DNA of 50,354 bases from Acidobacteria bacterium 5-1 (GTDB lineage: Bacteria > Acidobacteriota > Blastocatellia > Pyrinomonadales > Pyrinomonadaceae). Made by a program: the position numbers and the translations under genes. The notes under the pieces are model-generated. The model worked only from the letters and a program-made list of their open reading frames with translations. It made no database searches and was not told the origin of the DNA. The DNA is taken from NCBI GenBank assembly GCA_002050455.1, contig MWZA01000169.1, positions 1-50,354 on the forward strand, written 5' to 3'. Shown here piece after piece: positions 20,500-50,354 of the stretch; positions within the stretch are counted from its first letter, which is position 1, and each line of letters begins with the position of its first letter.

Positions 20500-20506
20500 G
20501 AAATAT

Positions 20507-20609
20507 GCCGCAAAAAGGCACAAAAACGCAAAAAAAAGAAATATGAAACCACAGATTAACACAGATAGACGCAGATAAAATTTTTGTGCTTTTTGTGCTT
20601 TTTTGTGGC
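20507..20609. repeat. Inverted short-period repeat between actA and actB
   Basis: GCCGCAAAAAGGCACAAAAA (from 20507) and TTTTTGTGCTTTTTTGTGGC (to 20609) are inverted and could form a long stem. Between them ACCACAGATT, AACACAGATA and GACGCAGATA are three degenerate 10-nt units. This is a non-coding insertion in an operon. Confidence 0.6.
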
Positions 20610-20635
20610 TGATAAATTGAGGAATCAAAAATAAA

Positions 20636-23600
20636 ATGCCCAGCAAAGACAGCAAAACTAACTTTGCATTACTGCGAGATAAAATTCTCCAAAAGAGCGG
20701 AAAAGATTATTGGCGGAGCGTCGAAGAATTCGCTGACGCGTCGGAATTTGAAGAATTCGTCAAGCACGAATATCCAAGCCAAGCCGAAGAATGGGAAGAC
20801 GGTTTGAGCCGCCGCAACTTTATTAAAGTGATGGGCGCGTCCTTAGCATTTGCCGGATTGAGCGGCTGCGTGATTCAACCGGCGGAAAAAATTGTGCCGT
20901 ATGTTCGCCAACCCGAAGAAATCGTGCCGGGAAAAGCTCTGTATTTTGCAACGGCGATGTCGCTCGGCGGCATTGCGACGGGTTTGCTCGCTGAATCAAA
21001 CGAAGGTCGTCCGACTAAAATCGAAGGCAATCCAGAACATCCGGGCAGTTTGGGCGCGACGGATGTTTTCGCGCAAGCCTCGCTTTTGCAGATGTATGAC
21101 CCGGATCGTTCGCAGGCAACTCTCTATCGCGGAAATCCGACGACCTGGCAAAATTTTATGTCCGCTATTCGCGCTGCGATTGATGAGAATCGCGTGGACG
21201 GCGGCGCAGGCATTCGATTTTTAACCGAAACCGTTACCTCCCCGACGCTTATCGGGCAATTCAAGCAAATTCTTACCGAACTTCCGAATGCCAGATTATA
21301 TCAATATCAGCCGGTCAATACCGATAATGCAATGGCTGGCGCACAGATGGCTTTCGGCTCGCCGGCTCACACGGTTTATAAATTTGACCAAGCGCAGCGT
21401 ATTTTGTCGCTCGATGCCGATATATTTTCAGGTTTTAATGTTCGTTACATCAAGGATTACACCAAAGCCCGTGCTTTTTCCGAAGAAAAGAAAGAGATAA
21501 ATCGTCTTTACGTCGTCGAAACGACAATGAGTTTAACGGGCGCGAAATCCGACCACCGTTTGCCGGTCAAACCAAGCCAATTGCCGGAAATTGCCAAAGC
21601 GATTGCAGCGGCTCTGGGAGTTTCGGGCGCAAATCCGTCAACTGCAGGTTTTACGCCGGAAACCGTGCAGTGGATTGACGCGATGGCGAAAGATTTACTC
21701 GAACACAGAGGCAGGTCAATCGTCGTCGCCGGTGATAATCAACCGCCGATTGTTCACGCGCTGGCTCACGCAATAAATGCCGCGCTCGGAAATATCGGGC
21801 AAACGGTTGTTTATACCGAGCCGCTGCATCCGAATGCGGAAATGCTCCAAGTTGAAAATTTGCGCCGATTGATTAGCGAAATTGACGGCGGCGCGGTGAA
21901 AATGCTTGTCATTCTGGGCGCAAATCCGGTTTACAACACGCCGTCAGATTTAAAACTAAATGCGGAGAGAATGAATAAAATTCCGCTTCGCGTTCACGTC
22001 GGAATGTATGGCGACGAAACCGCCGAACTTTGTCATTGGCACGTTTCGGAAAAACATTATCTTGAAATGTGGAGCGATACACGCGCCTATGACGGCACGG
22101 TTACATTTGTTCAGCCCTTGATTCAACCGCTTTATGACAGCAAGAGCATACACGAAGTTGTGCAGGTTTTTGCTCAAGAAAATTACGATAAAAAAGATTA
22201 CGACATCGTTAAAGAATTTTGGCAAAAGCAAGGTTTGACAAATGCGCCGCTCACTTTGGGGCTTGTGCCAAACACAACGGCAAATGCCGCAGCACAAAAT
22301 GGAGAAGTGAGAACCCAAACCGCGCTGACAGCAACTCCAGCCGCAACTCCGGGCGCGACAACAGCAGCATCACCGACATCTGCGCCGCAATCTGCACAAA
22401 CAGGAAATACGGCTTCTTCTGCTCCAAACCAAACTGCGCCGGCTGCAGCGGCTTCTCCTGCGTCAAATAATTTTGAAGATATGTGGCGAAGAGCTGTTCA
22501 CTTGGGTTTTATTCCAAATTCGGCAGCACCAACCAAATCGGTTTCCGCGAACACCGAATTTTTGGCGCAGCCGGCGGCAAATCCGATAGTCAGCAGCGGT
22601 GCATTGGAAATTTCAATTTTGCCCGACCCGACCATTTATGACGGACGTTTCAGCAATAGCGGTTGGCTGCAGGAACTTCCCAAACCTTTAAACAAAGTAA
22701 CTTGGGACAATGTGGCTTTGGTCAGTCCGCGCACTGCCGCACGTCTGGGCATTAACCAGGACATTAAATACAACGAGTATGCGGGCGGAGAGCAAGGAAC
22801 AACCTTTGTCAACACTAAAGGCGGAAATTTATTTTCCGATTTGGCAACGCTCACTTATCAAGGTTCGATAATAAATAAACCTGTTCCGATGTGGATTGCG
22901 CCCGGTCAGCCCGACGATGTAATTACGATTTATCTCGGTTACGGACGAACACGCGCCGGACGAGTCGGCACGGGCATCGGTTACAATGCTTACGATGTCC
23001 AAAAAGCCGACGCGATGTGGTATGGCACGGGCGATATAGCAAAAACCGGAACGCAAACGACAATTGCTTCGACGCAAATCCATTTCAATATGGAAGGACG
23101 CGACATCTTGCGCGTTTGGGACATCAATGATTTGGATAATGAAATCAAGCACGGGCATCAGGAAAACTTTTACGACGCTTCGATGTATCCGAAGTTTGAA
23201 TACTTAGGTAACAAATGGGGAATGACAATTGATTTGAATTCCTGCGTCGGATGCAATGCCTGTATTATCGCGTGTCAGGCGGAGAATAATATTCCGGTGG
23301 TCGGCAAAGAGCAGGTTGAACGAAGCCGCGAAATGCACTGGCTGCGGGTTGATACATATTTTAGCGGCGAAGATATTAACGACCCGTTAGGACCGCATTT
23401 TCAGCCGGTTTTGTGTCAACAATGTGAACTCGCGCCGTGCGAAACGGTTTGTCCGGTTCACGCGACGGTTCACAGCGCGGAAGGTTTGAACGATATGGTT
23501 TATAACCGTTGTATCGGAACGCGCTATTGCTCGAACAACTGCCCGTATAAAGTCCGGCGTTTTAATTTTCTGCTTTATCAGGATTGGAATACGCCGCAGT

Positions 23601-24004
23601 ATAAATTGATGCGAAACCCGGAAGTTTCGGTGCGCAGTCGTGGCGTGATGGAAAAATGCACTTACTGCACACAGCGCATCGCGGCGGCACGAATCGAAGC
23701 CGAAAAATCCGAGCAAAAAATTCCCGACGGCGCGATTTTAACGGCGTGTCAGTCGGTTTGTCCGGCGGACGCGATTGTTTTCGGCGATTTGAATGACAAA
23801 GACAGCAAAGTCGTTAAATTAAAAAACGACCCGCGAAATTACAATTTGCTTAACGATTTAAACACGCAGCCGCGCACGACTTATCTGGCGGCTCTGAAAA
23901 ATCAAAACAAGGAAATGCCCGATTATATTGTGCCGAAGATAAGAGAAAGTAATCTGGAAGAACCGGGCGAGATAGGAGTGCAGCCGACCGAATCGGAACA
24001 TTAG
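20636..24004 (+). CDS. actB: Alternative Complex III subunit B, molybdopterin-oxidoreductase-like plus Fe-S fusion
   Basis: This 1122-residue peripheral subunit faces the periplasm. Residues 58-64 (LSRRNFIKVMG) form a twin-arginine motif and AGLSGC78 a lipobox, so it is probably a Tat-exported lipoprotein. Residues 80 to about 860 resemble a molybdopterin oxidoreductase, but in ActB this domain binds no molybdenum cofactor. The C-terminal 260 residues carry four cysteine groups for Fe-S clusters: CVGCNACIIAC, CQQCELAPCETVCP, CIGTRYCSNNCP, and CTYCTQR with CQSVCPADA. Unusual is a Thr/Ala/Pro/Ser-rich linker of about 50 residues near 559-611 inside the first domain. GAGGAA upstream serves as ribosome binding site. 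Confidence 0.93.
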   Translation: MPSKDSKTNFALLRDKILQKSGKDYWRSVEEFADASEFEEFVKHEYPSQAEEWEDGLSRRNFIKVMGASLAFAGLSGCVIQPAEKIVPYVRQPEEIVPGKALYFATAMSLGGIATGLLAESNEGRPTKIEGNPEHPGSLGATDVFAQASLLQMYDPDRSQATLYRGNPTTWQNFMSAIRAAIDENRVDGGAGIRFLTETVTSPTLIGQFKQILTELPNARLYQYQPVNTDNAMAGAQMAFGSPAHTVYKFDQAQRILSLDADIFSGFNVRYIKDYTKARAFSEEKKEINRLYVVETTMSLTGAKSDHRLPVKPSQLPEIAKAIAAALGVSGANPSTAGFTPETVQWIDAMAKDLLEHRGRSIVVAGDNQPPIVHALAHAINAALGNIGQTVVYTEPLHPNAEMLQVENLRRLISEIDGGAVKMLVILGANPVYNTPSDLKLNAERMNKIPLRVHVGMYGDETAELCHWHVSEKHYLEMWSDTRAYDGTVTFVQPLIQPLYDSKSIHEVVQVFAQENYDKKDYDIVKEFWQKQGLTNAPLTLGLVPNTTANAAAQNGEVRTQTALTATPAATPGATTAASPTSAPQSAQTGNTASSAPNQTAPAAAASPASNNFEDMWRRAVHLGFIPNSAAPTKSVSANTEFLAQPAANPIVSSGALEISILPDPTIYDGRFSNSGWLQELPKPLNKVTWDNVALVSPRTAARLGINQDIKYNEYAGGEQGTTFVNTKGGNLFSDLATLTYQGSIINKPVPMWIAPGQPDDVITIYLGYGRTRAGRVGTGIGYNAYDVQKADAMWYGTGDIAKTGTQTTIASTQIHFNMEGRDILRVWDINDLDNEIKHGHQENFYDASMYPKFEYLGNKWGMTIDLNSCVGCNACIIACQAENNIPVVGKEQVERSREMHWLRVDTYFSGEDINDPLGPHFQPVLCQQCELAPCETVCPVHATVHSAEGLNDMVYNRCIGTRYCSNNCPYKVRRFNFLLYQDWNTPQYKLMRNPEVSVRSRGVMEKCTYCTQRIAAARIEAEKSEQKIPDGAILTACQSVCPADAIVFGDLNDKDSKVVKLKNDPRNYNLLNDLNTQPRTTYLAALKNQNKEMPDYIVPKIRESNLEEPGEIGVQPTESEH

Positions 24005-24019
24005 TTTTTGAGGAAAGCT

Positions 24020-25447
24020 ATGGAAGACGTAAAAGAAATTCAAAGAAGACTTCATCCGCCAATGGTCGAAGGCGACCATACTTTTGCCACCGCGACGGAT
24101 AGAATCAGCGATATAACGCTGAAAAGGAAAACGCCGTTCGGTTGGTTTATCGGGTTTGGCATCGGGTTTATTCTCCTCCAAATTATGATGATAACGGTAA
24201 CTTATCTTGTTTTTACCGGTATCGGCATTTGGGGAACTAATCAGCCGGTTGGTTGGGCGTTTCCGATTATCAATTTTGTCTGGTGGATTGGTATCGGACA
24301 CGCGGGAACGCTGATTTCCGCGATTTTGCTGCTCTTAAATCAAAAATGGCGAACTTCAATCAATCGTTTCGCCGAAGCAATGACGCTTTTCGCGGTGGCT
24401 TGTGCGGGTGTCTATCCGTTACTGCACACTGGTCGCCCATGGCTCGCTTACTGGATGTTCCCGTATCCGAACACGATGGGGATGTGGCCCCAATTTCGCA
24501 GCCCTTTGATTTGGGACGTTTTTGCGGTTTCAACTTATGCGACTGTTTCGCTTCTATTTTGGTATGTCGGCTTGATTCCCGACCTTGCGACTTTGCGCGA
24601 CCGGGCGAAAAACAAATATTTTAGAATCGCCTACGGATTACTCTCGATGGGTTGGCGCGGTTCGGCGCGGCATTGGCATCGTTATGAAATCGCCTATTTG
24701 CTTTTGGCAGGACTTTCCACGCCGCTTGTGCTTTCGGTTCACTCAATCGTTAGTTTGGACTTTTCGGTTTCGCAGCTTCCGGGCTGGCACGCGACAATTT
24801 TCCCGCCGTATTTTGTGGCAGGGGCGATTTTTGCGGGCTTTGCGATGGTGCTGATTCTGTGTATTCCGCTTCGAGTTTGGTATAACCTGAAAGATTTTAT
24901 CACCGACACGCACCTTATTTATATGGGCAAGGTGATGTTGGCGACCGGTTTAATCGTCTGTTATGGTTACGTGATGGAAGCATTTTTCGGTTGGTATAGT
25001 GCCGGTGAATTTGAGGTTTTTATGATAAAGAACCGTATTTGGAACGGTCCTTACTGGTGGTTTTATTGGCTTTTGATTTTGTGCAACGGCGTATCAATTC
25101 AATTTTTGTGGTTCAAACGTTTTCGTGAAAGCGCGTTCTGGCTGTTTATCATTTCTTTGGTTGTCAGTGTCGGAATGTGGTTGGAGCGGTTTGTAATTAT
25201 TGTTACGAGTTTGCACCGCGATTTTCTGCCGTCTTCGTGGGCGATGTATGCACCGACGATTTGGGATTGGTCAATGTTTTTCGGCACACTTGGATTGTTT
25301 GTTACCTTGATTTTCCTATTTGTCAGGTTTCTGCCCGTGATTTCGATTTTCGAGGTGCGAACGCTTTTGCCCGAAGCCAATGTTCACGGACATCAGGAAG
25401 ATTTTGAAGAGAATGTTTTGGAATCGCAGCGAGGAATTAAGTCGTAA
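24020..25447 (+). CDS. actC: Alternative Complex III subunit C, NrfD/PsrC-like quinol-oxidising membrane subunit
   Basis: This 475-residue protein has about ten membrane helices of the NrfD/PsrC type. It likely holds the quinol site next to ActB. Conserved pieces include WWIGIGHAGTLISAILLL, GRPWLAYWM, LSVHSIVSLDF and the C-terminal SLHRDFLPSSWAMYAPT. The ORF track uses TTG 24008, but ATG 24020 has TTGAGGAAAG at proper spacing. The gap to actB is only 15 nt. Confidence 0.93.
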   Translation: MEDVKEIQRRLHPPMVEGDHTFATATDRISDITLKRKTPFGWFIGFGIGFILLQIMMITVTYLVFTGIGIWGTNQPVGWAFPIINFVWWIGIGHAGTLISAILLLLNQKWRTSINRFAEAMTLFAVACAGVYPLLHTGRPWLAYWMFPYPNTMGMWPQFRSPLIWDVFAVSTYATVSLLFWYVGLIPDLATLRDRAKNKYFRIAYGLLSMGWRGSARHWHRYEIAYLLLAGLSTPLVLSVHSIVSLDFSVSQLPGWHATIFPPYFVAGAIFAGFAMVLILCIPLRVWYNLKDFITDTHLIYMGKVMLATGLIVCYGYVMEAFFGWYSAGEFEVFMIKNRIWNGPYWWFYWLLILCNGVSIQFLWFKRFRESAFWLFIISLVVSVGMWLERFVIIVTSLHRDFLPSSWAMYAPTIWDWSMFFGTLGLFVTLIFLFVRFLPVISIFEVRTLLPEANVHGHQEDFEENVLESQRGIKS

Positions 25448-25464
25448 GTTTGGTAAAATTGAAA

Positions 25465-25552
25465 TTGTAATCAGCCGACTCTGCCCGCATTCGGAATATC
25501 AGGGCAACTCACCCATGTCAAGCCGTCTGCCAGCACAGACGGCTGATTACAA
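25465..25552. repeat. Structured intergenic element between actC and actD
   Basis: Outer arms TTGTAATCAGCCG (25465-25477) and CGGCTGATTACAA (25540-25552) are perfect 13-bp inverted repeats. Inside, AGCCGTCTG-CCAGCA-CAGACGGCT forms a 9-bp hairpin (25521-25544) and TGCCC/GGGCA a shorter one. The outer stem and the inner hairpin share CGGCT, so they compete or form a three-way junction. It looks like a REP-type element or RNA switch inside the operon. Confidence 0.6.
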
Positions 25553-25565
25553 GCGATAAAAAGTT

Positions 25566-26099
25566 ATGGACAAAAATATCTACGGATTGTTAGCTGAATT
25601 CGATACGGCGACGCAAATGGTTGACGCGGCGCGTGCAATTCGGGATGCGGGTTATACGAAAACCGACGCTTTTTCGCCGTTTCCGCTTCACGAGATTGAC
25701 GAAGCACTCGGTGTGAAAAAAAGCATTTTACCGTTTTTGGTTTTAGGCGGCGGAGTTGCCGGCTTGTTGACCGGACTCGGTTTGCAGTATTACGTCCATG
25801 TCATTGATTATCCGCTTGTCGTCGGCGGTCGCCCGTTTTTCAGCTTGCCGGCATTCATTCCGCCGATGTTTGAGTTGACAATTCTATTTGCGGCATTCAC
25901 GGCGGTTTTCGGAATGCTTTTTCTCAACGGTTTGCCGCAGCCGTATCATCCGGTTTTTAATGTGCCGCGTTTTGCTTTGGCAACGAGAGAGAAATTCTTT
26001 TTAGTGATTGAAGCCAAAGACCCGAAGTTTGATTACGAGGAAACGAAAAGTTTTATGGAAAGCCTGAATCCGCAGGAGGTTTTTGATGTCGAGGAATAA
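25566..26099 (+). CDS. actD: Alternative Complex III subunit D (DUF3341)
   Basis: This 177-residue protein matches the DUF3341 family: YGLLAEFDTATQMVDAARAI, a soluble N-terminal domain of about 50 residues, then two membrane helices (LPFLVLGGGVAGLLTGLGLQ; MFELTILFAAFTAVFGMLFL) and a soluble tail. It is a structural membrane subunit of the complex. The 3' end overlaps actE by 14 nt, and the actE ribosome binding site lies within it. Confidence 0.93.
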   Translation: MDKNIYGLLAEFDTATQMVDAARAIRDAGYTKTDAFSPFPLHEIDEALGVKKSILPFLVLGGGVAGLLTGLGLQYYVHVIDYPLVVGGRPFFSLPAFIPPMFELTILFAAFTAVFGMLFLNGLPQPYHPVFNVPRFALATREKFFLVIEAKDPKFDYEETKSFMESLNPQEVFDVEE

Positions 26100-26838
26100 T
26101 TATCAGTTATCAGTCATCAGTCATCAGTTATCAAAATTCGGAAAATGGAAAATGCTCTGTTTACTGCTGACCGTCGGCTGTTCACTGTCTGCGGGTTGCC
26201 GTTACGATATGCAAGATCAACCGCGTTATAAAGCCTATGAAAAGAGTGAATTCTTTAGCGATGATAAAGCGATGAGAGATTTGCCCGAAGGCACGGTGGC
26301 GCGTGGTTTTTTGCGTGAAGATAAGGCTTTTTATACAGGCAAAAAGGAAAATGCCGGAACGACGACCACGCCGGTTGAAACAACGACGGACGCTTCCGGC
26401 AATACGTTAGTGTCAAGTTTTCCCGACGCGATTGAAGAATTTCCCGTGCCTGTTACCAAAGAATTGCTTGACCGCGGCGAAGAAAGATATAAGATTTTCT
26501 GCATCGTTTGCCACGGTCCGGTTGGAAACGGCGATGGAATGATTGTCCGACGCGGATTTCCGCAGCCGCCGACCTATCACGACGACCGTTTGCGAAACGC
26601 GCCCGTCGGACATTTTTTCGACGTGATGACTAACGGCTGGGGCAAGATGAACAGTTACGCATCGCAAATTCCGCCTGCCGACCGTTGGGCGATTGTGGCA
26701 TATATTCGGGCTTTGCAAATCAGTCAAAATCCAAGCGGAATGAGTTCATTGCCAATGACGGAAACAGGAAACACGACAAATACGACGGCAACGCCGTCCG
26801 CGTCGCCGAATGCAAACACACGAGGAGGCGCGAAATAA
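26086..26838 (+). CDS. actE: Alternative Complex III subunit E, monoheme cytochrome c lipoprotein
   Basis: This 250-residue exported cytochrome has one heme site, CIVCHGPVGNGDGM, with a methionine ligand probably in WGKMNSY. ATG 26086 follows AGGAGG by 6 nt, so it is the start; the TTG used by the ORF track is 3 nt earlier. The first 20 residues are encoded by intergenic-type heptamer repeats (YQLSVISHQLS). They precede a lipoprotein signal whose lipobox LSAGC places the lipidated cysteine at 38. The C-terminus is a Thr/Asn/Ser/Pro-rich tail. The subunit carries electrons between ActA/ActB and the oxidase. Confidence 0.92.
   Translation: MSRNNYQLSVISHQLSKFGKWKMLCLLLTVGCSLSAGCRYDMQDQPRYKAYEKSEFFSDDKAMRDLPEGTVARGFLREDKAFYTGKKENAGTTTTPVETTTDASGNTLVSSFPDAIEEFPVPVTKELLDRGEERYKIFCIVCHGPVGNGDGMIVRRGFPQPPTYHDDRLRNAPVGHFFDVMTNGWGKMNSYASQIPPADRWAIVAYIRALQISQNPSGMSSLPMTETGNTTNTTATPSASPNANTRGGAK
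26103..26130 (+). repeat. Heptamer tandem repeat inside the 5' end of actE
   Basis: Four 7-nt units TCAGTTA, TCAGTCA, TCAGTCA, TCAGTTA, followed by TCAAAAT. The same unit occurs between ctaD and ctaE. It begins 17 nt after the start codon of actE and is translated. Confidence 0.85.
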
Positions 26839-26839
26839 A

Positions 26840-28060
26840 ATGACAAACGCGAAGTTTGACGCTGCGGATTTTCAAGCACCGGCGGAAGTAAATCGCTGGC
26901 GCACGCTGGCACTCGGTATCGGCGGAATTTTTACGATTATTTGGGCAATCGGGTGTTTTTTTAATGTCGAACAGGGATTGCGTTCTTGGCTGTTGGGTTT
27001 TATTTTCTGGGGCGGCATCGGCATCGGAAGCATTGGCATTTTACTCTTGCAATATTTGACTGGCGGTGCGTGGGGCGTGGTTATTCGCCGTTTTGCCGAA
27101 GCCGGTTCGCGCACACTGCCGCTTCTTTTTATACTATTTTTACCAATTTTAATCGGCGTTTCTTCGATGTATGAGTGGACACATCTGAATGACCGGATTA
27201 TTCAACATCGTCAGCCGTATTTAAGCATTGAATGGTGGATTTTCCGCGCCGTTTTGTATTTCGTTTTGTGGGGCGTGATGGTGTATTTGCTCAATAAATG
27301 GTCGTGGCAGCAAGACCAGAGCGACAATTACGAAGATTCGGCGAAATTTTTGGCAGATGCGTCAAAGTTTTCCGGTCCGACAATGGTTTTCTTTGTGCTG
27401 GTCGTCAGCTTTGCCGCGATTGATTGGGTAATGACGCTTGACCCGCACTGGTATTCGACAATGTGGGGATTTCTTTTTGTCGCGGGTTGGGCTTTGAGTT
27501 GTTTCTGCTTTATGGTGGCGATTATGGCGGCACTTGCCGATAAACCACCGATGAATCGCGTTTTGGGAAAAAGACATTTTCACGACATTGGTAAATTGAT
27601 GCTCGCGCTGGTGATGGTTTGGGCGTATTTCAATTTTTCGCAGTATCTGATTATCTGGTCGGGAAATTTGCCCGAAGAAACAAATTGGTATCTCACGCGC
27701 CAGGAAGGAGCGTGGGGCGCAATTGGCGCGATTTTGATAATTTTACATTTCGCTTTTCCTTTTCTCGTTTTGCTTTCGCGGGACATCAAGCGAAACGCCA
27801 GATGGCTGGCGTATCTGGCGTTTTTTATTCTGCTTCTCAGACTTGTTGATATGTATTATATGATTGGTCCGAGTCCGAGAATCGGAATGCACGGACAGGA
27901 AGTTCCATTCGCGCTTAGTTTTAGCTGGATGGATATTGTCGCACCCATTGCGGTCGGCGGAATTTGGCTGTGGTGGTTTTTCGGTGAACTGATGAAACGT
28001 CCGCTTGTTCCCGTCAACGACCCGTTTTTGGAAAATGCGATTGAGCATGGGAAGCATTGA
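26840..28060 (+). CDS. actF: Alternative Complex III subunit F, NrfD-related membrane subunit
   Basis: This 406-residue protein has about ten membrane helices and is a distant homolog of ActC. Typical pieces are FFNVEQGLRSWLLGFIFWGG, SSMYEWTHLN, AIDWVMTLDPHWYSTMWG and YYMIGPSPR. It probably carries a proton channel together with ActC; this is from work on other Alternative Complex III enzymes, not visible here. ATG 26840 has AGGAGG 11 nt upstream, so the ORF-track start (26810, inside actE) was rejected. It follows actE after 1 nt. Confidence 0.93.
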   Translation: MTNAKFDAADFQAPAEVNRWRTLALGIGGIFTIIWAIGCFFNVEQGLRSWLLGFIFWGGIGIGSIGILLLQYLTGGAWGVVIRRFAEAGSRTLPLLFILFLPILIGVSSMYEWTHLNDRIIQHRQPYLSIEWWIFRAVLYFVLWGVMVYLLNKWSWQQDQSDNYEDSAKFLADASKFSGPTMVFFVLVVSFAAIDWVMTLDPHWYSTMWGFLFVAGWALSCFCFMVAIMAALADKPPMNRVLGKRHFHDIGKLMLALVMVWAYFNFSQYLIIWSGNLPEETNWYLTRQEGAWGAIGAILIILHFAFPFLVLLSRDIKRNARWLAYLAFFILLLRLVDMYYMIGPSPRIGMHGQEVPFALSFSWMDIVAPIAVGGIWLWWFFGELMKRPLVPVNDPFLENAIEHGKH

Positions 28061-28061
28061 G

Positions 28062-28133
28062 AATTACGAATTTCAAATTACGAATTACGAATTAAAGAAA
28101 TATTCTAACATTCGTAATTTGAAATTCGTAATT
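28062..28133. repeat. Perfect 24-bp inverted repeat built from AATTACGAATT units
   Basis: Left arm 28062-28085 begins AATTACGAATTTCAAATTAC and right arm 28110-28133 is its exact reverse complement, separated by 24 nt. Both arms are made of 7-11-nt units of the AATTACG type. It occupies the gap between actF and the next gene and ends 17 nt before that gene's ATG. Confidence 0.8.
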
Positions 28134-28150
28134 CGTAATTGATTAAAATT

Positions 28151-28684
28151 ATGGCTAAACACGAAAAAACTTTTGTAGATTACGATAAACCTTATGAAAC
28201 AAATCTCATCGGGTTTCGCGGAGTAATTTATTTTGGTGTCGGATTATTTTTGTTGATCGTCGTAACTTTCGGTTTGATGTGGTTTTTGCAGAATATAATG
28301 GAAGAGCAGGCAATCGAAGCTAAAGACCAAAAAAATCCGATGGCGATGAATGAACAAGAGCGTTTGCCGCCCGAACCGCGTCTGCAAGCTGCGCCCGGTT
28401 TTGGGGTTGATTCTGTGCCGGGTCGCGTTAATCTTGAACTGAATGCACCGCAATCGGAATACCGCGAACTGCACCAGCAGTGGGAAAAAATTTGGAAAGA
28501 CGGACAAACAGATCCGCAAACGGGAACGGTTATTTCTTTGCCGATTGAACAGGCAAAAGAAAATTTTTTGCAGGAAAATGTTAAGTCTGATAGTAGCGAG
28601 AAAGAACAAAAGATGTTGAAGGATTCGCGTTCAATGTTTTCGTCTTCGAGCGCGGGGCGCGTCGCTTCAGATGTGAGAAGATAA
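28151..28684 (+). CDS. Small membrane protein of the act-cox cluster
   Basis: This 177-residue protein has one N-terminal membrane helix (GVIYFGVGLFLLIVVTFGLM) and a periplasmic domain. LPPEPRLQAAPG followed later by ISLPIEQAKENFL resembles short conserved motifs of unnamed proteins that sit in act/cox clusters of Acidobacteria and relatives, where the pattern PPEPRLQ and IPIxxAMxL recurs. The function is unknown; a structural or assembly role in the ACIII-caa3 supercomplex is a guess. TTG 28139 in the ORF track lies in the repeat; ATG 28151 is preferred although its ribosome binding site is weak. Confidence 0.65.
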   Translation: MAKHEKTFVDYDKPYETNLIGFRGVIYFGVGLFLLIVVTFGLMWFLQNIMEEQAIEAKDQKNPMAMNEQERLPPEPRLQAAPGFGVDSVPGRVNLELNAPQSEYRELHQQWEKIWKDGQTDPQTGTVISLPIEQAKENFLQENVKSDSSEKEQKMLKDSRSMFSSSSAGRVASDVRR

Positions 28685-28721
28685 AAAGGCAAAATTTGGA
28701 ATTCCGAATTTGAGGTAAAAA

Positions 28722-29615
28722 ATGAAAAAAAGTTCAGCTATTTCAGCAGTTTTGAAACTGACACTTTTATTAAGTTTGAGTGTTTTGTTAATTCCGGCAA
28801 TCGTTTCGGCACAAAAGGCAGAGCATTATAATTCGCCGCTTTATTCGCCGAAAACATATGACCCGAACCAAGCGGGAACAAGCAACGGTATGCCGCCGAT
28901 TTTGCAAAAGGTCGGCATTGAGCAAAAACTTAACGGGCAACTGCCGATTGACGCACAGTTTAAGGACGAAAACGGCAATATCATCAAACTCGGCGATTAT
29001 TTTAATAACGGCAAGCCAGTTATTTTGGCACTCGTTTATTACGAATGCCCGATGCTTTGCAATGAAGTTTTAAACGGTTTGACAGGTTCGCTAAAAGGCA
29101 TTTCGTTTAATGCGGGCAAAGATTTTGATGTGATAGCAATCAGCTTTGATGCGCGTGAGAACGAGAAACCGGATTTAGCCAAAAACAAAAAAGCCAGCTA
29201 TCTGGCGAGATACGGGCGCGAAGGCGCGGAAAACGGCTGGCATTTTCTAACCGGAACACAACCGGAAATTGACAAAGTAACACAAGCCGTCGGATTTAAT
29301 TATATGTTTGACGAAAGCACCAATCAATTTGCCCACGCCGGCGGAATTATGGTTCTGACACCCGAAGGCAAACTTTCGCGCTATTTTTACGGCATTGACT
29401 ACGCGCCGAAGGATTTGAAATTCGGCATTATGGATTCGGCAAACAATAAAATCGGAAATCCGGCTGAACAATTATATCTTTATTGTTTCCATTATGATCC
29501 GGCTTCAGGAAAATACGGTTTTGCGATTTTGAAAGTTTTGCGGCTGATGGGAGTTGCTACTGTTCTCGGTTTAATCGGTATGTTCTTGGTTTTTTGGCGA
29601 TATAATAGAAGGTAA
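28722..29615 (+). CDS. SCO1/SenC-family copper chaperone for the CuA site
   Basis: This 297-residue protein has a signal peptide (LLLSLSVLLIPAIVSAQ), a thioredoxin-like domain and a C-terminal membrane helix (LMGVATVLGLIGMFLVFW). The copper-binding pair is YYECPMLCNEVL and the histidine ligand is in NQFAHAGGIMV. The C-terminal anchor is the arrangement seen in many SCO proteins from act-cox clusters. It precedes ctaC, whose product carries the CuA site. GAGGT is the ribosome binding site. Confidence 0.9.
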   Translation: MKKSSAISAVLKLTLLLSLSVLLIPAIVSAQKAEHYNSPLYSPKTYDPNQAGTSNGMPPILQKVGIEQKLNGQLPIDAQFKDENGNIIKLGDYFNNGKPVILALVYYECPMLCNEVLNGLTGSLKGISFNAGKDFDVIAISFDARENEKPDLAKNKKASYLARYGREGAENGWHFLTGTQPEIDKVTQAVGFNYMFDESTNQFAHAGGIMVLTPEGKLSRYFYGIDYAPKDLKFGIMDSANNKIGNPAEQLYLYCFHYDPASGKYGFAILKVLRLMGVATVLGLIGMFLVFWRYNRR

Positions 29616-29652
29616 AGCGGCAGATTTGAAATCTGGAATTTCTTAAAAGGTT

Positions 29653-30786
29653 ATGCAACAGAATTCTTCGTGGGTTCCATTATTTCCCGAACAGGCTTCG
29701 ACTTTCGCGTGGCAGGTAGACGGATTGTATTTTTATTTGCTCGCCGTCAGCGCGTTTTTCACTGTTGGAATTGCCGCGGCGATATTTTTTTTCGCCGTGA
29801 AATATCGTGAAAAAGAAAAATACGCGACGGGCGCGGAAATTCATGGGTCAATAGCACTCGAAACGCTGTGGTCAATTATTCCATTTATCATCTCAATCAC
29901 TATTTTTCTCGGCGGCGCAATCGTTTTTTACAATCAATATCGTCCGCCCGCCGATGCAATGGAGATTTACGTTGTCGGAAAGCAATGGATGTGGAAACTT
30001 CAGCACGAAACAGGTCAGAGAGAAATTAATGAACTGCACATTCCCGTCGGGCGCAATGTCAAGCTAACAATGACAACCGAAGATGTTATCCACGACTTCG
30101 CTATTCCGGCATTTAGAACCAAAATTGACGTTGTGCCGGGACGATATACGACCATTTGGTTTAACGCGACAAAGCCGGGTAAATATCGCTTGCAATGTAT
30201 GGAATACTGCGGATTAAACCATTCGGGAATGAACGGTTGGGTTTATGTAATGGAGCAGCGCGATTTTGACAATTGGTTGAGCGGAAATGTGTCAGGTCAA
30301 ACGCCGGTTGAAGCGGGCAGAGATTTATTTGAAAATAAACTCGGCTGCGCTTCGTGTCACGCGGGCGGAGCTAATCAGCGCGGCGCGGTGCTTGAAGGTT
30401 TATTCGGTAATCAAGTTAAATTAACTAACGGGCAAACCGTTATAGCTGATGAAGAATACATCCGCAATTCAATTTTGAACCCGTCCAGTCAAGTCGTGGA
30501 GGGCTATCAGCCGATTATGCCGACCTTCAAAGGTCAGATTACGGAAGAACAGCTCATTCAACTTGTCGCTTACGTTAAATCTTTGAGCGGCAGCAATAAC
30601 GGCAGCAGTTCGACTCCAACCGGCGGCACGACCACGAATTCAGGCAACGGAAATATGATGAGAACAGGAGAGGCAAACTCAAACAATCCGGTTGCGCCGC
30701 AAGCCAATCGGGGCGGTACAAACAGTCAGGGAAGTAATCCGAATGCGCCGAAGAATCAGCCCGAACCGACTAATAGGCAGAGATAG
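29653..30786 (+). CDS. ctaC: Cytochrome c oxidase subunit II with fused cytochrome c (caa3 type)
   Basis: This 377-residue subunit has two N-terminal helices, a cupredoxin domain with the CuA ligands H in VIHDFAIPAF and CMEYCGLNHSGM (about 183-194), and a C-terminal class I cytochrome c with LGCASCHAGG (about 230) and a methionine in PIMPTFKGQ. The fusion defines a caa3 oxidase that can accept electrons directly from ActE. The last 65 residues are Asn/Ser/Thr/Gly/Pro-rich and disordered. It follows sco by 37 nt. Confidence 0.94.
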   Translation: MQQNSSWVPLFPEQASTFAWQVDGLYFYLLAVSAFFTVGIAAAIFFFAVKYREKEKYATGAEIHGSIALETLWSIIPFIISITIFLGGAIVFYNQYRPPADAMEIYVVGKQWMWKLQHETGQREINELHIPVGRNVKLTMTTEDVIHDFAIPAFRTKIDVVPGRYTTIWFNATKPGKYRLQCMEYCGLNHSGMNGWVYVMEQRDFDNWLSGNVSGQTPVEAGRDLFENKLGCASCHAGGANQRGAVLEGLFGNQVKLTNGQTVIADEEYIRNSILNPSSQVVEGYQPIMPTFKGQITEEQLIQLVAYVKSLSGSNNGSSSTPTGGTTTNSGNGNMMRTGEANSNNPVAPQANRGGTNSQGSNPNAPKNQPEPTNRQR

Positions 30787-30819
30787 AGTATTTATAACAA
30801 GGGAAAGTAGTAAATAGTT

Positions 30820-32493
30820 ATGGAAAACGTAAATGCAGCAAATGTTGGAAATATCAGACCCGAACCGAAGGTAAATTATTTGACAAACGGTTTTACGGCA
30901 AAATCTTGGCTTTTGACAAAAGACCACAAGCGGATTGCGATTCTGTATTTGTTGACGGTTTCGGTATTTTTCGCGCTCGGTGGTATTTATGCTTCATTAA
31001 TTCGGCTTGAACTGCTGACGCCGGCGAGCGATTTGCTCGAATCGGGAACATATAACCGGGTCTTTACGCAGCACGGAGTCTTGATGGTTTTCTTTTTTCT
31101 GATTCCGTCAATTCCGGCGATTTTGGGAAATTTTCTGATACCGATTATGATTGGCGCGAAGGATTTGGCGTTTCCGAAAATAAATCTGCTCAGTTGGTAT
31201 CTTTTTATGGCAGGTGGCGGTTTAACGCTTTACGCTTTAATGCTGGGCGGTGTTGATACGGGTTGGACTTTTTACACGCCATACAGCACGACCTTTTCCA
31301 ATAGTTACGTGATGTTGGTTGGGATGGGAATTTTTATCAACGGGTTTTCTTCAATTCTGACCGGACTGAACTTTATCGTTACGATTCACACGATGCGTGC
31401 GCCGGGAATGACCTGGTTTCGCTTGCCGCTTTTCGTCTGGGCGCATTACGCGACAAGTTTGGTAATGCTTTTGGGAACGCCGGTTATTGCTATCACAATT
31501 TTGCTGATGGCTTTAGAGCGTCTTGCTCACGTTGGTATCTTTGACCCGGCAATCGGCGGCGACCCGATTTTGTTCCAACATTTATTTTGGTTTTACTCGC
31601 ATCCGGCGGTTTATATTATGGTTTTGCCGGGAATGGGCGTTATCTCAGAATTGATTTCCAATTTTTCGCGCAAGAAAATTTTCGGCTACGAATTTATCGC
31701 TTTTTCGAGTATTGCAATTGCCGTTTTCGGTTTCCTTGTCTGGGGACATCATTTGTTTGTCAGCGGACAATCAATTTACGCGGGTTTGGTTTTCTCATTT
31801 TTGAGTATGGTGGTTGCCATTCCTTCGGCAATTAAGGTGTTTAACTGGACGGCGACGCTTTACAAAGGTCATATTTCCTACGATACGCCGATGCTTTACG
31901 GCTTATTCTATATCGGACTGTTTCTAATCGGCGGATTAACCGGACTGTTTCTCGGCGCAATGGGCTTGGATGTGCATTTAACCGATACTTATTTCGTTGT
32001 TGCGCATTTTCATTATGTAATGGTCGGCGGAAGTGTTCTGGCTTATCTCGGCGGTTTGCATTACTGGTGGTCGAAAATTACGGGCAAGTTATACTCGGAA
32101 TTTTGGAGCAAAATTTCCGCGATGCTCGTTTTCGTCGGATTTAATTTAACATTCTTTCCGCAATTTATTTTGGGATATATGGGAATGCCGCGCCGTTATG
32201 CTTCATACCCGGAAGAGTTTCAGGTTCTGAATATCTTCTCGACGGCGGGCGCGTCAATTTTGGCAATCGGCTTGGTAATGCCGCTGGTTTATTTTACATA
32301 TTCAATCTTTTTCGGTGAAAAAGCACCGGCAAATCCGTGGCTGCTGCCCGGACTTGAATGGCGCACATCTTCGCCGCCACCGACTGAAAACTTTGAGGAA
32401 ACACCGATTGTTACTTGGGAAGCCTACGATTTTACCGAAGAAAGCGGTCTGGATTTGGAAGACGCGAGAAATAAATATAAGGTAACGGTTTAA
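30820..32493 (+). CDS. ctaD: Cytochrome c oxidase subunit I, A2-type
   Basis: This 557-residue heme-copper subunit has about 12 helices. Heme and copper ligands are visible: FTQHGVLM (low-spin heme), [15 protein letters not shown] (CuB histidine and cross-linked tyrosine), [10 protein letters not shown] (CuB pair) and [12 protein letters not shown] (both hemes). The loop reads YSHPAVY instead of HPEVY, so the D-channel glutamate of A1 enzymes is replaced; this YS form marks the A2 subfamily. It works with ctaC, ctaE and ctaF and needs heme A from ctaA. Confidence 0.95.
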
Positions 32494-32494
32494 T

Positions 32495-32540
32495 CAGTTA
32501 TCAGTCAACGGTCAACAATAAAACTGATAACTGATAACTG
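32495..32540. repeat. Inverted heptamer repeats between ctaD and ctaE
   Basis: CAGTTATCAGT (32495-32505) is inverted relative to ACTGATAACTG (32523-32533) and an adjoining GATAACTG copy. The TCAGTTA unit is the same as the repeat in actE. It fills the whole 52-nt gap upstream of ctaE. Confidence 0.75.
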
Positions 32541-32545
32541 AAATT

Positions 32546-33481
32546 ATGAATACACACGAACACTATCATCCGCCTGGTCTTCAGCATCAATTTGAAGATA
32601 TGGCGCAACAAGCGGAATCCGATGCGATTGGAATGTGGATGTTTCTCGTCCAGGAAATTATGTTCTTTGGCGGGCTGTTCACGGTTTATCTGGTTTTTCG
32701 TTCCAAATATCCGATGGCGTTCGCCGCCGGAAGTAACCATTTAAATGAGTGGCTCGGAATGGCGAACACGCTTATTCTTATTGTCAGCAGCTTAACGATG
32801 GCTTTGGCAGTTCATTACGCGCAACTCGGAAAGCGAAACGCGCAAGTCGTTTTAATTATTCTGACAATGCTTTTCGGCGTAGCGTTTTTGGGCATTAAGG
32901 CGTATGAATACGCGGAGAAATATAACGAAGGTATTGTCCCTGTATTAGGTTTGAACGCAAAAACCGATAAAAATATCGCTGCAAAAGATGAACATTACGC
33001 GGCAAATCCCGAATCACAAATAAGGAATTCTTTGGATTTTTCAGGTTCGGTTGAAAACAATCCTGATATTCACGCCGAAAACGGTCAAGCTGAACATGAA
33101 GAATATGTCAATCCGCGCGGTGATTTTATTTGGAAAGATATTACTTTAGCGAATAAAGCCTTAGCAGAAGGTTATCTAACCGATAGCGAAAAAATCGGCT
33201 ATATGGCAAACGGCGAAATCAGCCAAGCCAAGTTTCAGGACAAAGTTCGCATCTTTTTTTGGATTTATTTTGCGATGACCGGACTTCACGCTTTACATAT
33301 GGTTATCGGTCTTGGAGTTATGTCGTGGCTGTTGTGGAAGGCTTGGAAATATACTTATACGCCCGAATTCTACGCACCGGTGGAAATGGCGGGTTTGTAT
33401 TGGCACTTTGTTGATATTGTTTGGATTTTCCTTTTCCCGCTGCTTTATTTACTCGGCAGACATTTCGGAGGACACGGTTAA
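32546..33481 (+). CDS. ctaE: Cytochrome c oxidase subunit III with a large hydrophilic insertion
   Basis: This 311-residue protein shows the CoxIII pattern: DAIGMWMFLVQEIMFFGGLF, helix FLGIKAYEYAEKY, then FFWIYFAMTGLHALHMVIGL and GLYWHFVDIVWIFLFPLLYL. Between residues 130 and 232 there is an insertion of about 100 mostly charged residues (NAKTDKNIAAKDEHYAANPE and onward) that ordinary five- or seven-helix CoxIII proteins lack. The insertion would lie between two helices, probably on the outside. The flanking conserved segments show no frameshift. ctaF starts 3 nt after the stop codon. Confidence 0.92.
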   Translation: MNTHEHYHPPGLQHQFEDMAQQAESDAIGMWMFLVQEIMFFGGLFTVYLVFRSKYPMAFAAGSNHLNEWLGMANTLILIVSSLTMALAVHYAQLGKRNAQVVLIILTMLFGVAFLGIKAYEYAEKYNEGIVPVLGLNAKTDKNIAAKDEHYAANPESQIRNSLDFSGSVENNPDIHAENGQAEHEEYVNPRGDFIWKDITLANKALAEGYLTDSEKIGYMANGEISQAKFQDKVRIFFWIYFAMTGLHALHMVIGLGVMSWLLWKAWKYTYTPEFYAPVEMAGLYWHFVDIVWIFLFPLLYLLGRHFGGHG

Positions 33482-45499: not shown

Positions 45500-45678
45500 T
45501 TATTTCAAATCCGCAATCCAAATGTTGCCCGTCGTTTCGGCATATTCAAAAGCGATTTGATTTCCCAAAGGCAACCACGTCGGATAGCGAACCTAAGAAT
45601 TTAACTTCGCGTAATTCGTCAATTGTTTTTGTTGTTTGTGTTGAGCGCGAAACCCGATAGAGATTCCAAACGCCGTTA
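45500..45678 (-). pseudogene. 3' remnant of a third kinase paralog with PD40/TolB-like propeller end
   Basis: Directly after the stop of the complete kinase gene the minus strand reads RNGVWNLYRVSRSTQTTKTI. After a frameshift near 45580-45600 it continues RYPTWLPLGNQIAFEYAETT then GNIWIADLK and a stop at 45500-45502. This is the typical C-terminal end of the beta-propeller found in many acidobacterial Ser/Thr kinases, not of TPR proteins. So a kinase with another sensor type once ended here. Confidence 0.7.
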
Positions 45679-48372
45679 CGGAATACCGACGCGCCTAACC
45701 AATTCATGATAGCGCGGGTCGCCGCGCAGCGGATCAAGGCGCGGGTCCACTTGAAGATAAGCCATCCACAGCTCTCGCTCCTGATATGATTTTTCCAGAT
45801 ATTCAAACGCTTTATCCTTATCCCCTATCTGGGCATTTATACACGCGCCAGAAAAAGAATGAGCCGTGCTGTATTCATAATACCTTTTGGCATGCTCGCG
45901 CAAAACTCCCTGCCAACCCGATGTTTGATATGCGGTCTTAAAAAGCTGTCTGGTTTTTTCGTCTGTTTTCGCTAATGTTTGAAATCTCATGAGCCGTTCA
46001 AACGCTTCCGAGTTATTGCCCTGCATTTCTAATCCCCCAACATACCAAAAGATGCCGACGGCGCCATTCGGATTCATGGCAGCGAGTCTTTCTAATTGCT
46101 GGTCAGCCTCGTCATAGCGGCGGGCATAAGTCAAAACAATCTTATATATCGCTTGATGATAATACGCTGCTGGGTCGAGGTCGATGGCGGTCTTAATTTC
46201 CGTAATCGCCTCGTCAAAACGTCCGCCCGGACCCATCAGAAAACGCGCATAAATATTATGTGCCTGCGGAGAATCGGGCTTTAACTCGATGGCGCGTTTA
46301 CACGACGCTTCCGCCCCGGCAAAATCATATTCGTAATACATTTTGTTTTCGCATAACACGCTATACGCTTCTGACAAATTCTGATCCAGCTCCAGCGCCT
46401 TATTGATTGCATCCATCGATTGTTGGTGCTCCTCGTGGACGTTAGTAGCTCTGCTCCCAAAATTGGAAAATGAGCGGTGGGCGTGAGCCTTGCCCGCCCA
46501 CGCCCGCGCATAATTCGGATCAAGCCGGATAGCTTGCTCAAAAGCCTCCACCGCCTTCCGTGAATCCGTTGTGGTTCTCTTGTCATTTAAATAAATCCCT
46601 TGCAGATAGAGCCGATACGCTTCTTCGTTGGTCGTCCCGCGCTTTGCCGTCGCACCGCTCGACGTGCTGCCGAATCGCGCCGACAATTTGTTTCCGACTT
46701 CGCCCGCGATTGCGTCCTGCATCGCAAAAACATTCGCCGCATCCTTCTCAGTTGTATAAGTTTCTTCTATCTGACCGCTCGCCACATTAATAAGCTGTGA
46801 TGTAACGCGGATTTTCCCGCCCGCCAATTGATAATTCGACGCGAGAACGTAATCAACCTGCTGCTCCTGCCCGGCGGCAAGCGAGTCTTGATTGATGTCC
46901 GCATATTTGCGCGTCGCGCTCAAAGGTCGAACAATGAAACCTTTTATCGAACCGAGTTTGAGAATCAATGAATCGGCAATCCCGATTTCGTAAATCTCGT
47001 CGCGGTTCGCCGCGCCGATTGGTTTAAGCGGCAAAACAGCGATTGATTTTTTGCCGCCGCCCATCGCGGGTTTCGCTCCGGCGTAAAAATAATAAGCGAG
47101 AGCGATTACGCCGCCGAGCAAGACAATCGAAACAATCGCGGCGAGCGATTTACGCCGTTTGATTTGCCGCGAAAAACTGTATTGCGTCTCGTTGGTTTGA
47201 ACGTTCGCGCCGCCGGTCGCGGCGCGTAAAATTTCAGTCGCGCCTGCGTCCGACGCGCCGGAACGCGCTAGTTTTTCGTCCGCTTTCAGATTTTCACGCA
47301 AATCCTTTAAATCCGTGAGAACGTCCTTCATCGTTTGATAACGCTCGTCCTTGTTTTTGCGAAGCGTTTTCGAGACGATGCGCTGCATTTCGTTCGGCAC
47401 GTCTTCTGAAAAGCGCGAAAGCGGATGCGGTTCGGAATTTATCAAATTGGCGAAACTCTCCGACACCGAATCGCCCGCAAACGGCGTTCTGCCCGCAAGC
47501 ATTTCATAAATCAACACGCCGAGACTGAAAATATCTGTCCGCTCGTCAACCCGCTCGCCCTTCGCTTGTTCGGGCGACATATAGTTGACCGTCCCCAGAA
47601 TCACGCCTTGTGCCGTTTCGTTTTGTTTGACGGTTGATTGTTCCAAGCCGAGAATGGATTTGTTTTTTTGCTCGACGAGCTTTGCCAATCCAAAATCCAG
47701 AATCTTCACATAACCGTCGGGGCGAATCATTATATTTTCGGGCTTGATGTCGCGGTGAACCAGATGCGCTTCGTGCGCCGTGCAGAGTGCGCCTGCGATT
47801 TGAATCGAGATGTCCAAAACTTCCGACAGTTTCAAAGGTTTTTCCTTGAAAGTCTCGCGCACGGTTTTGCCTTTGATAAATTCGCTGACAATGTAATGCG
47901 CTCCGTCCGATTCGCCGATTTCATAAATAACCAAAATGTTCGGATGATTTAACGACGATGCGGCTTTTGCTTCCTGAATAAAACGATTGAGATTCGATTC
48001 GTCCCGACTGAATTTTTCGTTGAGGATTTTGACGGCGACTTGGCGGTCGAGTTTTTTGTCTTCAGCAAGATAAACCTCGCCCATTCCGCCTTCGCCAATG
48101 AGTGCAATAATTTTATAACGGTCAAGCCATTGTCCGATTTCGAGTTTGTTTTCCGCTGCGACCATCATTTCCGCGACTTCGCCGATTGGCGCTTGCTGCA
48201 TAAAGTGGTCGTCATCCGCGTTTTCAAACGATGCCAGCAAAATTTCGACTTCACGGCGCAGACCGGCATCGTCAGCGCAGGCATCGGCTAAAAACACTTC
48301 GCGCTCGTCGGGCGCGTGTTCGAGTGCCGATTGAAAAACCTGTTTTACCTGTTGCCATTTTTTGCCTGTCAT
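45676..48372 (-). CDS. Ser/Thr protein kinase with TolB-like and TPR domains
   Basis: This 898-residue membrane protein has an N-terminal helical part (1-80), a PknB-type kinase domain (about 85-345: G-loop IGEGGMGEVYLAE, K115, HRDIKPENIMIR, DFGLAKL, GTVNYMSPEQAKGE, TDIFSLGVLIYEML), a linker, one membrane helix near 410-430 (LAAIVSIVLLGGVIALAYYF), a TolB N-terminal-like domain (KKSIAVLPLKPIGAANRDE, IADSLILKLG) and about five TPR units (EAFEQAIRLDPNYARAWAG and similar). It ends DPRLDPLRGDPRYHELVRRV. Kinases of this build probably sense signals outside and phosphorylate proteins inside the cell. The partner is unknown. Confidence 0.92.
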   Translation of the reverse strand: MTGKKWQQVKQVFQSALEHAPDEREVFLADACADDAGLRREVEILLASFENADDDHFMQQAPIGEVAEMMVAAENKLEIGQWLDRYKIIALIGEGGMGEVYLAEDKKLDRQVAVKILNEKFSRDESNLNRFIQEAKAASSLNHPNILVIYEIGESDGAHYIVSEFIKGKTVRETFKEKPLKLSEVLDISIQIAGALCTAHEAHLVHRDIKPENIMIRPDGYVKILDFGLAKLVEQKNKSILGLEQSTVKQNETAQGVILGTVNYMSPEQAKGERVDERTDIFSLGVLIYEMLAGRTPFAGDSVSESFANLINSEPHPLSRFSEDVPNEMQRIVSKTLRKNKDERYQTMKDVLTDLKDLRENLKADEKLARSGASDAGATEILRAATGGANVQTNETQYSFSRQIKRRKSLAAIVSIVLLGGVIALAYYFYAGAKPAMGGGKKSIAVLPLKPIGAANRDEIYEIGIADSLILKLGSIKGFIVRPLSATRKYADINQDSLAAGQEQQVDYVLASNYQLAGGKIRVTSQLINVASGQIEETYTTEKDAANVFAMQDAIAGEVGNKLSARFGSTSSGATAKRGTTNEEAYRLYLQGIYLNDKRTTTDSRKAVEAFEQAIRLDPNYARAWAGKAHAHRSFSNFGSRATNVHEEHQQSMDAINKALELDQNLSEAYSVLCENKMYYEYDFAGAEASCKRAIELKPDSPQAHNIYARFLMGPGGRFDEAITEIKTAIDLDPAAYYHQAIYKIVLTYARRYDEADQQLERLAAMNPNGAVGIFWYVGGLEMQGNNSEAFERLMRFQTLAKTDEKTRQLFKTAYQTSGWQGVLREHAKRYYEYSTAHSFSGACINAQIGDKDKAFEYLEKSYQERELWMAYLQVDPRLDPLRGDPRYHELVRRVGIP

Positions 48373-48446
48373 CCTTTTAGGTTTCAGATTTTAAGCCGAT
48401 TTGAAATTTGAAAGTTAATACTGTTCATCTCGTCAATTCAAAACTT

Positions 48447-49768
48447 TCATTGCCGAAGACCGACGCGCTTGACCAATTCATCAAATCGCGGGTCGTCGCG
48501 CAACGGGTCGAGGCGCGGGTCAACCAGTGCGCCGGGACGAATTTTACGGTTTTCAAAACGCTTGTTCAGCAATTCAAATGCTTTATCCTTTTCGCCCAAC
48601 GCGGCGTAATACGTCGTCAGATTATCCCACGATAAATCAAATTGTTGGCTTTCATCGGTTATCGTTCGCAAGAATCCTTGCCAACCGCCTTTGGCAAAAC
48701 TTTCGCGTAATAAAGCCGCCTTTTGCGGTTCGCCGTTTAGTTCCTGATATTTAGCCTGTTCTTCGACCGCTTCGGCATAATTGCCTTTCATCCAATAAGC
48801 GAGAGAGAAATTGTAATGCACCGACGGATAAGTGGCATCAAGTTCGACCGTTTTCTTCAACTGTGCGATTGCCTCGTCGTATCTTCGCATAATAAAATAT
48901 ATCATGCCGTATTCACGATTGATGATGAGTGAGAACGGCTCAATTTCCAGTGCCCGCCTTTGCATTGCTAAAGCCTCTTCATACTTTTTCTGCGAACCCA
49001 ATAAATTGCGGTAATAATGATATGTCATCGCGTAGTTCGGATTAAGTTCGATGGCGCGTTGATACTCGCGCTCCGCTCCATCGTCATCGCCGTCCTGAAA
49101 CAAGACTAGTCCGAGAGCAGTGTGCGCTTCGCCTAACTCCGGGTCGAGCGATAAGGCTTTCAGCACGGCATCTTTCGCTTTCGGCTTTGTTTCGCTCAAC
49201 GGCGCGATGCGATAACTTTCAAATGCCAGATAGTTTTCGGCAATTCCGGCATAACCGAGCGCGTAATTCGGGTCAACCGCGACCGACTGCTGAAAATAGT
49301 CAAGTGCTTTCTGCATATCCGACTTCGTGCGTTTGTTCAAATGGAAACGCCCTTTCAGATAAAGCTGATAGGCTTCCGGGTTTGTCGTGGAGTTCTTCGC
49401 CAGACGTTGCTCGTCCGCGCCTGAGAATTTCACCCGCAGTTTGTTTGAAACATCGCGGGCAATCTCGCTTTGCAATGAAACAAGGTCGATAGTTTTGCGG
49501 TTGTATTGCTCGCTCCAAATCACGTTTTCTGTCTGCGCGTCAACCAATTCCAGACTCAATGTTAATTGCTCGCCGCGCTGGACGACGCGCCCGTTAACAA
49601 TCGCCTGCACGTTTAGCTCTTTGCCGACGGTTTGCGGATTTGTTTCCTTACCTTTGTAACGAAAAACGGTTGAACGCGCCTTGACATTCAGATTCGGCAA
49701 TTGCGACAAACTGCCAATCAGCGTTTCGGTCATTCCGTCCGACAGATACTCGATGTCCGCATTACCGC
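48447..49768 (-). CDS. TolB-like and TPR part of a second Ser/Thr kinase (5'-truncated at an inverted junction)
   Basis: Reading from the junction, the minus strand encodes NADIEYLSDGMTETLIGSLS (TolB-like domain), then YQLYLKGRFHLNKRT and several TPR units, ending RLDPLRDDPRFDELVKRVGL. It is a paralog of the upstream-ending kinase (same end motif). The ORF track extends it to 49883, but the first 38 residues (from MPMMRSNSLG) are the antisense of kinase codons and are not real. Its true 5' part (kinase C-lobe and membrane helix) lies in reverse at 49768-50354. Confidence 0.85.
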
Positions 49769-50354
49769 CGTTTGCGGGCGAAACAACGAGCGACACGATT
49801 AGCGCGATTCTGAGTAAAAATCCCGCCCCTCTTGCCGCAAGCGTTCCTGACATTCCCAAAGAATTGGAACGCATCATCGGCAAAACGCTCAGAAAAAACC
49901 GCGAGGAACGCTATCACCATATCAAGGAATTGCTGATTGATTTGAAAGATTTCAAAAAAGAATTGGAGTTTAACGAAATACTTGAGCGTTCAACCGCGCC
50001 TTCAACAAATGATGAAGCGGCGACTAATAATTCGGCGGTTGTTACATCTGCACAAACCGCGCAACCGGCATCGAGCGCGGAATATATTTTCGGGGAAATC
50101 AAACAGCACAAGCGCGGAGTTCTGGCAGTTTTAGCGATTTTGCTGGTGTCGTCGATTGGTTTTGGCTACTGGTTTTTATCGCATCGCGTGGCTTCAACCA
50201 ATGTTCGGCAGATTGAATCAATCGCCGTCTTGCCTTTTATAAACGAAAGCGGTAATGCGGACATCGAGTATCTGTCGGACGGAATGACCGAAACGCTGAT
50301 TGGCAGTTTGTCGCAATTGCCGAATCTGAATGTCAAGGCGCGTTCAACCGTTTT
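49663..50354. repeat. Perfect 106-nt inverted repeat closing the window
   Basis: 49663-49768 is the exact reverse complement of 50249-50354, with no mismatch seen in 106 nt, and the arm may continue past the window end. The 480-nt middle holds the plus-strand kinase part. Inverting the whole segment joins that part to the minus-strand TPR part in frame. Confidence 0.95.
49768..50354 (+). CDS. Kinase C-lobe, membrane helix and TolB-like start of the second kinase (partial, both ends missing)
   Basis: This frame is absent from the ORF track because it has neither start nor stop. From 49768 it reads PPFAGETTSDTISAILSKNP, LERIIGKTLRKNREERYHHI, a linker, a membrane helix near GVLAVLAILLVSSIGFGYWF, IESIAVLPFINESGNADIEY and runs open to the window end at RSTVF. 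It matches residues from about 300 on in the complete kinase (PFAGDSVSESFANLI, KTLRKNKDERYQTM). The kinase N-lobe and catalytic loop are missing upstream, where the sequence switches to the opposite strand of the same gene. Confidence 0.85.

Follow-up and report, generated by a model that had tools for sequence, protein, structure and literature searches.

The window, i.e., the whole stretch of 50,354 nt analyzed here, constituted contig C180 in its entirety (1-50354), part of a draft genome that comprised 3.21 Mb in 223 contigs, with an estimated completeness of 79% and a contamination of 0.5%. Genes resembling a respiratory alternative complex III/cytochrome oxidase cluster, as judged by eye from the translations, were located at 19840-33481, including putative genes for cytochrome c, a molybdopterin-type subunit, an SCO-like protein, and cox subunits I-III. 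The minus strand contained two tandem kinase-TPR genes at 45676-49768. Between 48447 and 49768, Pfam TPR hits on this strand identified the TPR region of a Ser/Thr kinase-TPR protein, which shared 65% identity with an intact same-genus protein of 891 aa over the C-terminal half of the latter, extending from NADIEY via RYKGK to the end. The plus strand harbored a loop and the second arm of an inverted repeat (Table 1), which together aligned (BLASTP) to residues 293-483 of the 891-aa orthologue, a region that covers the final ~52 kinase-domain residues, a linker, a transmembrane (TM) segment, and NADIEY...STV. The two arms were exact reverse complements of 106 nt each (100% complementary) that were separated by 480 nt, and the chance expectation for an exact inverted repeat of this length in 50 kb is about 1e-54, i.e., negligible. 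Because the window represents the whole of contig C180, arm 2 terminates on the final base of the contig, and no further contig sequence follows position 50354. The coordinates and complementarity confirmed the perfect 106-nt inverted repeat that an earlier, sequence-only reading had placed at the window end. Its assignment of the TPR part to the minus strand and the kinase part to the plus strand was also borne out, the latter consisting of the end of the kinase domain and the TM segment.

Table 1. Features of the split kinase-TPR gene in the window and terminal fold-backs at ten further contig ends (L, stretches of the same assembly).
Feature	Coordinates	Strand	Description
TPR (C-terminal) part of the split kinase-TPR gene	48447..49662	-	Pfam TPR hits; 65% identity to orthologue
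Arm 1	49663..49768	-	Codons NADIEYLSDGM...STVF with correct continuation into RYKGKETN and the TPR part; colinear with intact orthologue
Chimeric junction (probable)	49768..49769		ATTACCGC^CGTTTGCGG; sole point departing from intact orthologues in order and strand
Loop	49769..50248	+	Last ~52 kinase-domain residues from PFAG, linker, TM segment, up to NESG; BLASTP against orthologue
Arm 2	50249..50354	+	Inverted-repeat copy; final base is the contig terminus
Terminal fold-back, L027	1..33		
Terminal fold-back, L028	1..106		
Terminal fold-back, L086	1..76		
Terminal fold-back, L097	1..88		
Terminal fold-back, L113	19543..19599		
Terminal fold-back, L137	1..123		
Terminal fold-back, L163	1..79		
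Terminal fold-back, L169	5983..6073		
Terminal fold-back, L184	15685..15767		
Terminal fold-back, L192	19894..20000		

The closest relatives, which belong to the same genus, each contained one intact Ser/Thr kinase-TPR gene (889 aa and 891 aa, respectively). The order of the orthologue was kept within arm 1 and the TPR part, as well as within the loop and arm 2, and the sole break was situated at the junction. Unfolding the repeat generated 599 stop-free codons across the arm, compared to 487 as assembled. It had been proposed that inverting the segment gives one continuous gene; continuity between PFAG (residue 293 of the orthologue) and the stop codon was indeed obtained, but a complete gene was not, because the equivalent of orthologue residues 1-292, i.e., most of the kinase domain and the whole catalytic core, was absent from the contig. 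Measured against the single-frame arrangement of Pkinase domain, TM segment, and TPR region, the contig contained the TPR part and the kinase-domain end, both colinear with the orthologue, but not the kinase core. The plus-strand ORF showed no Pfam kinase hit, and neither orientation contained a catalytic loop or an activation segment. The best N-terminal matches to the missing first half of the kinase in the assembly were the neighboring paralogue and other family members. A kinase truncated at the end of contig C112 was not taken as the missing half, as it was only 52% identical to the orthologue and diverged before PFAG. The kinase ORF at the start of C112 (L217 1-60) leaves the family after ...TDARTD (VVGCFTKKF...) near the contig end, which perhaps represents another chimeric tail; the source of this divergent tail was not found among the contigs read.

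A real phase-variable inversion that switches the kinase gene would be in agreement with perfect arms inside a signaling gene and with a frame that is restored from PFAG to the stop codon by unfolding. However, such a switch is implausible because the catalytic core occurs in neither orientation and the far flank is absent, and it was rejected on these grounds. No sequence extends past arm 2, so that the unique flanks on both sides that characterize an invertible element were not present, and neither orientation provided a functional gene or promoter in view of the lack of a kinase catalytic core. Inverting the 480-nt loop between the arms would place the antisense arm upstream of PFAG instead of the remaining kinase domain. 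The arms consisted of ordinary coding sequence that is conserved in relatives, and no recombinase was evident by eye among the ORFs at 44-50 kb. A genomic inversion at this locus is therefore considered extremely improbable.

The TPR part matched 34 times in this genome, and as many as 62 matches were counted in a relative, indicating a strongly expanded family. The tandem arrangement of this family, with an adjacent paralogue, is also what a local inverted duplication in the genome, or gene conversion between tandem paralogues, could draw on. On the other hand, the arms were 100% identical, whereas other family members in the genome reached a DNA identity of only 66-77%, and such an event would leave the pattern at other contig ends unexplained. 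Inverted duplication was rejected because the end of the arm coincides precisely with the contig terminus and other contigs show the pattern as well; we give this origin hardly any credence. The 22-nt sequence just past the junction occurred once in the whole assembly, and the 480-nt loop segment was not found at high identity in its other contigs. The gene resembles the acidobacterial membrane Ser/Thr kinase-TPR proteins (Pkinase PF00069 and TPR) in its 65%-identical TPR part and in the loop, which encodes the segment just before it; in contrast to those proteins, the present copy is split, very probably by an artefact, and is devoid of the equivalent of residues 1-292. Its cellular version presumably encodes a membrane Ser/Thr kinase of ordinary type that carries a TPR output domain.

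The same structure was encountered elsewhere in the assembly. Among the 224 contig ends of the 114 contigs read (121 stretches, 1.51 Mb), 11 folded back exactly onto their own contig (C18, C19, C24, C35, C49, C55, C102, C180 (the window), C181, C200, and C218), with arms of 33-123 nt and loops of 359-5546 nt; C16 presented a weak case with 21 nt. The genes at the ten ends outside the window (Table 1) are likely broken or misordered. Because ten other contigs end likewise at unrelated places, the repeat in the window is almost certainly a copying and assembly error rather than a genetic switch. Within the 1.51 Mb, ten looped inverted repeats were exact over 45 nt or more, and all ten touched a contig terminus, which is vanishingly unlikely to occur by accident; the only interior exact inverted repeats of this length were two self-palindromes (46 and 48 nt). 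Of the 72 control contig ends, 43 came from relatives (30 public loci, MAGs in nearly every case) and 29 from two other draft genomes, with four control contigs of G008 that were all N left out; none of the 72 showed a fold-back. The difference between 11/224 and 0/72 (Fisher p = 0.04) is a weak contrast alone, and the controls differ in assembler; the contrast between interior and terminus inside the assembly is a stronger control than outside contigs. Unlike in the window, unfolding the other ten fold-backs did not consistently lengthen the frame of arm 1. This test is uninformative outside the window because the assembled path can possibly run through a hairpin in either direction. Furthermore, an exact inverted match of 89 nt was observed between L095 1-89 and the inside of L013 (10933-11021), which is possibly a fold-back chimera linking two contigs. 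Taken as a class, the fold-backs are very unlikely to be genuine structures of cellular DNA, such as DNA with hairpin ends, rearrangements, or a true inversion at the kinase gene.

The contig ends also carried traces of the assembly procedure. At least 15 of them had exactly 127-128 nt in common with another contig, and the 127-nt overlaps point to a de Bruijn graph with k = 127. All fold-back arms were shorter than 127 nt, as would be expected if longer ones merge with the original in the graph and shorter ones survive as dead-end tails; this may also explain why the arms vary in length instead of measuring exactly 127 nt. Several contig ends shared only 28-60 nt with other contigs. Such short overlaps are typical of low-coverage breaks and would suit a fold-back chimera that arose during library preparation rather than MDA, through enzymatic fragmentation or through the snap-back of neighboring single strands in end repair, and was kept at a low-coverage end, a process that would result in the same terminal inverted repeats with arms shorter than k. 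However, the loops of up to 1-5.5 kb exceed usual library fragments, and the sole retention of a chimeric path at many loci should require amplified chimeric molecules. A library origin is thus regarded as improbable.

The repeat is very probably a technical artefact, namely an inverted chimera of strand-displacement amplification (MDA/phi29) that became fixed where the k = 127 assembly reached a dead end. MDA allows displaced 3' ends to prime synthesis on displaced strands in the vicinity. During strand-displacement whole-genome amplification (MDA, phi29-type), an antisense strand would have been extended along the gene up to the PFAG codons, its 3' end would have folded back over about 480 nt and primed at a few matching bases beside the NADIEY codons, and the NADIEY-STVF stretch would then have been copied back in the opposite direction. 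A de Bruijn assembler with k = 127 could not recognize a repeat of 106 nt as a repeat, and its path would run through the chimeric junction and stop where the supporting sequence ends, before a full 127-mer merges with the gene's own sequence. The preference of the sequence-only reading for a fold-back chimera or an assembler stop over a real inversion gained support from the ten other ends and the k = 127 overlaps, as well as from the intact orthologues and from the finding that neither orientation has a catalytic core.

At several junctions, the bases may reflect such priming. The window junction (short form ACCGC^CGTTTGCGG) was compared with the adjacent paralogue, which reads AACGCCGTTTGCGG / AGAACGCCGTTTGCGG at the same motif and was used in place of the true flank, which is missing upstream of PFAG. 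This comparison suggests that CGC, about 3 nt, is shared at the window junction. The microhomology of CCGCCG proposed earlier was accordingly retained only in part, in that some bases appear to be shared but not necessarily CCGCCG. Past five of 12 junctions, 7-10 matches were present within the ten positions after the first mismatch (the chance of at least 7 is 0.6%), an outcome that priming at partly matching sites would give.

The class of artefact is already known. In one study, more than 85% of MDA chimeras were inverted with intervening deletions, the two partners were mostly no more than 10 kb from each other, and their junctions commonly showed complementarity of 2-21 nt (Lasken and Stockwell, 2007, PMC1855051); distances from 0 to >5,000 nt, with overlaps that peak at 6 nt, have also been described (PMC4595205). 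The cases presented here fit MDA chimeras in orientation and distance, as they join inverted segments of one locus over distances below 10 kb (480 nt in the window and 359-5546 nt at the other ends) and recur at unrelated loci of one sample (11/224 contig ends). They have in common with the published chimeras (PMC1855051; PMC4595205) inverted joins within a few kb, partly matching junctions, and many occurrences per genome, whereas those chimeras were seen in reads and the present ones as assembled contig ends, with MDA as the presumed chemistry. Palindromic reads in amplified DNA (PMC13265396) are similarly mirror-image chimeras that harm assemblies; however, they were found in tardigrade mitochondrial long reads, in contrast to the short terminal arms below k in an apparent k = 127 assembly. 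A pipeline for soil bacteria that combines single-cell MDA with SPAdes at k up to 127 (PMC12010503) demonstrates that this combination exists, not that the present genome came from it. A literature search for the same signature as named in single-cell assemblies found nothing direct.

The value of these results is a warning rather than biology. Of the contigs read, roughly one in ten (11/114) terminates in a mirror-image tail, by which sequence is misoriented or genes are broken, and these tails may be misread as invertible switches, hairpin termini, or split genes. They can be detected by a simple scan for the last 20-126 nt of a contig that recur reverse-complemented in the same contig. The gene underlying the present case is an ordinary member of the large acidobacterial kinase-TPR family.
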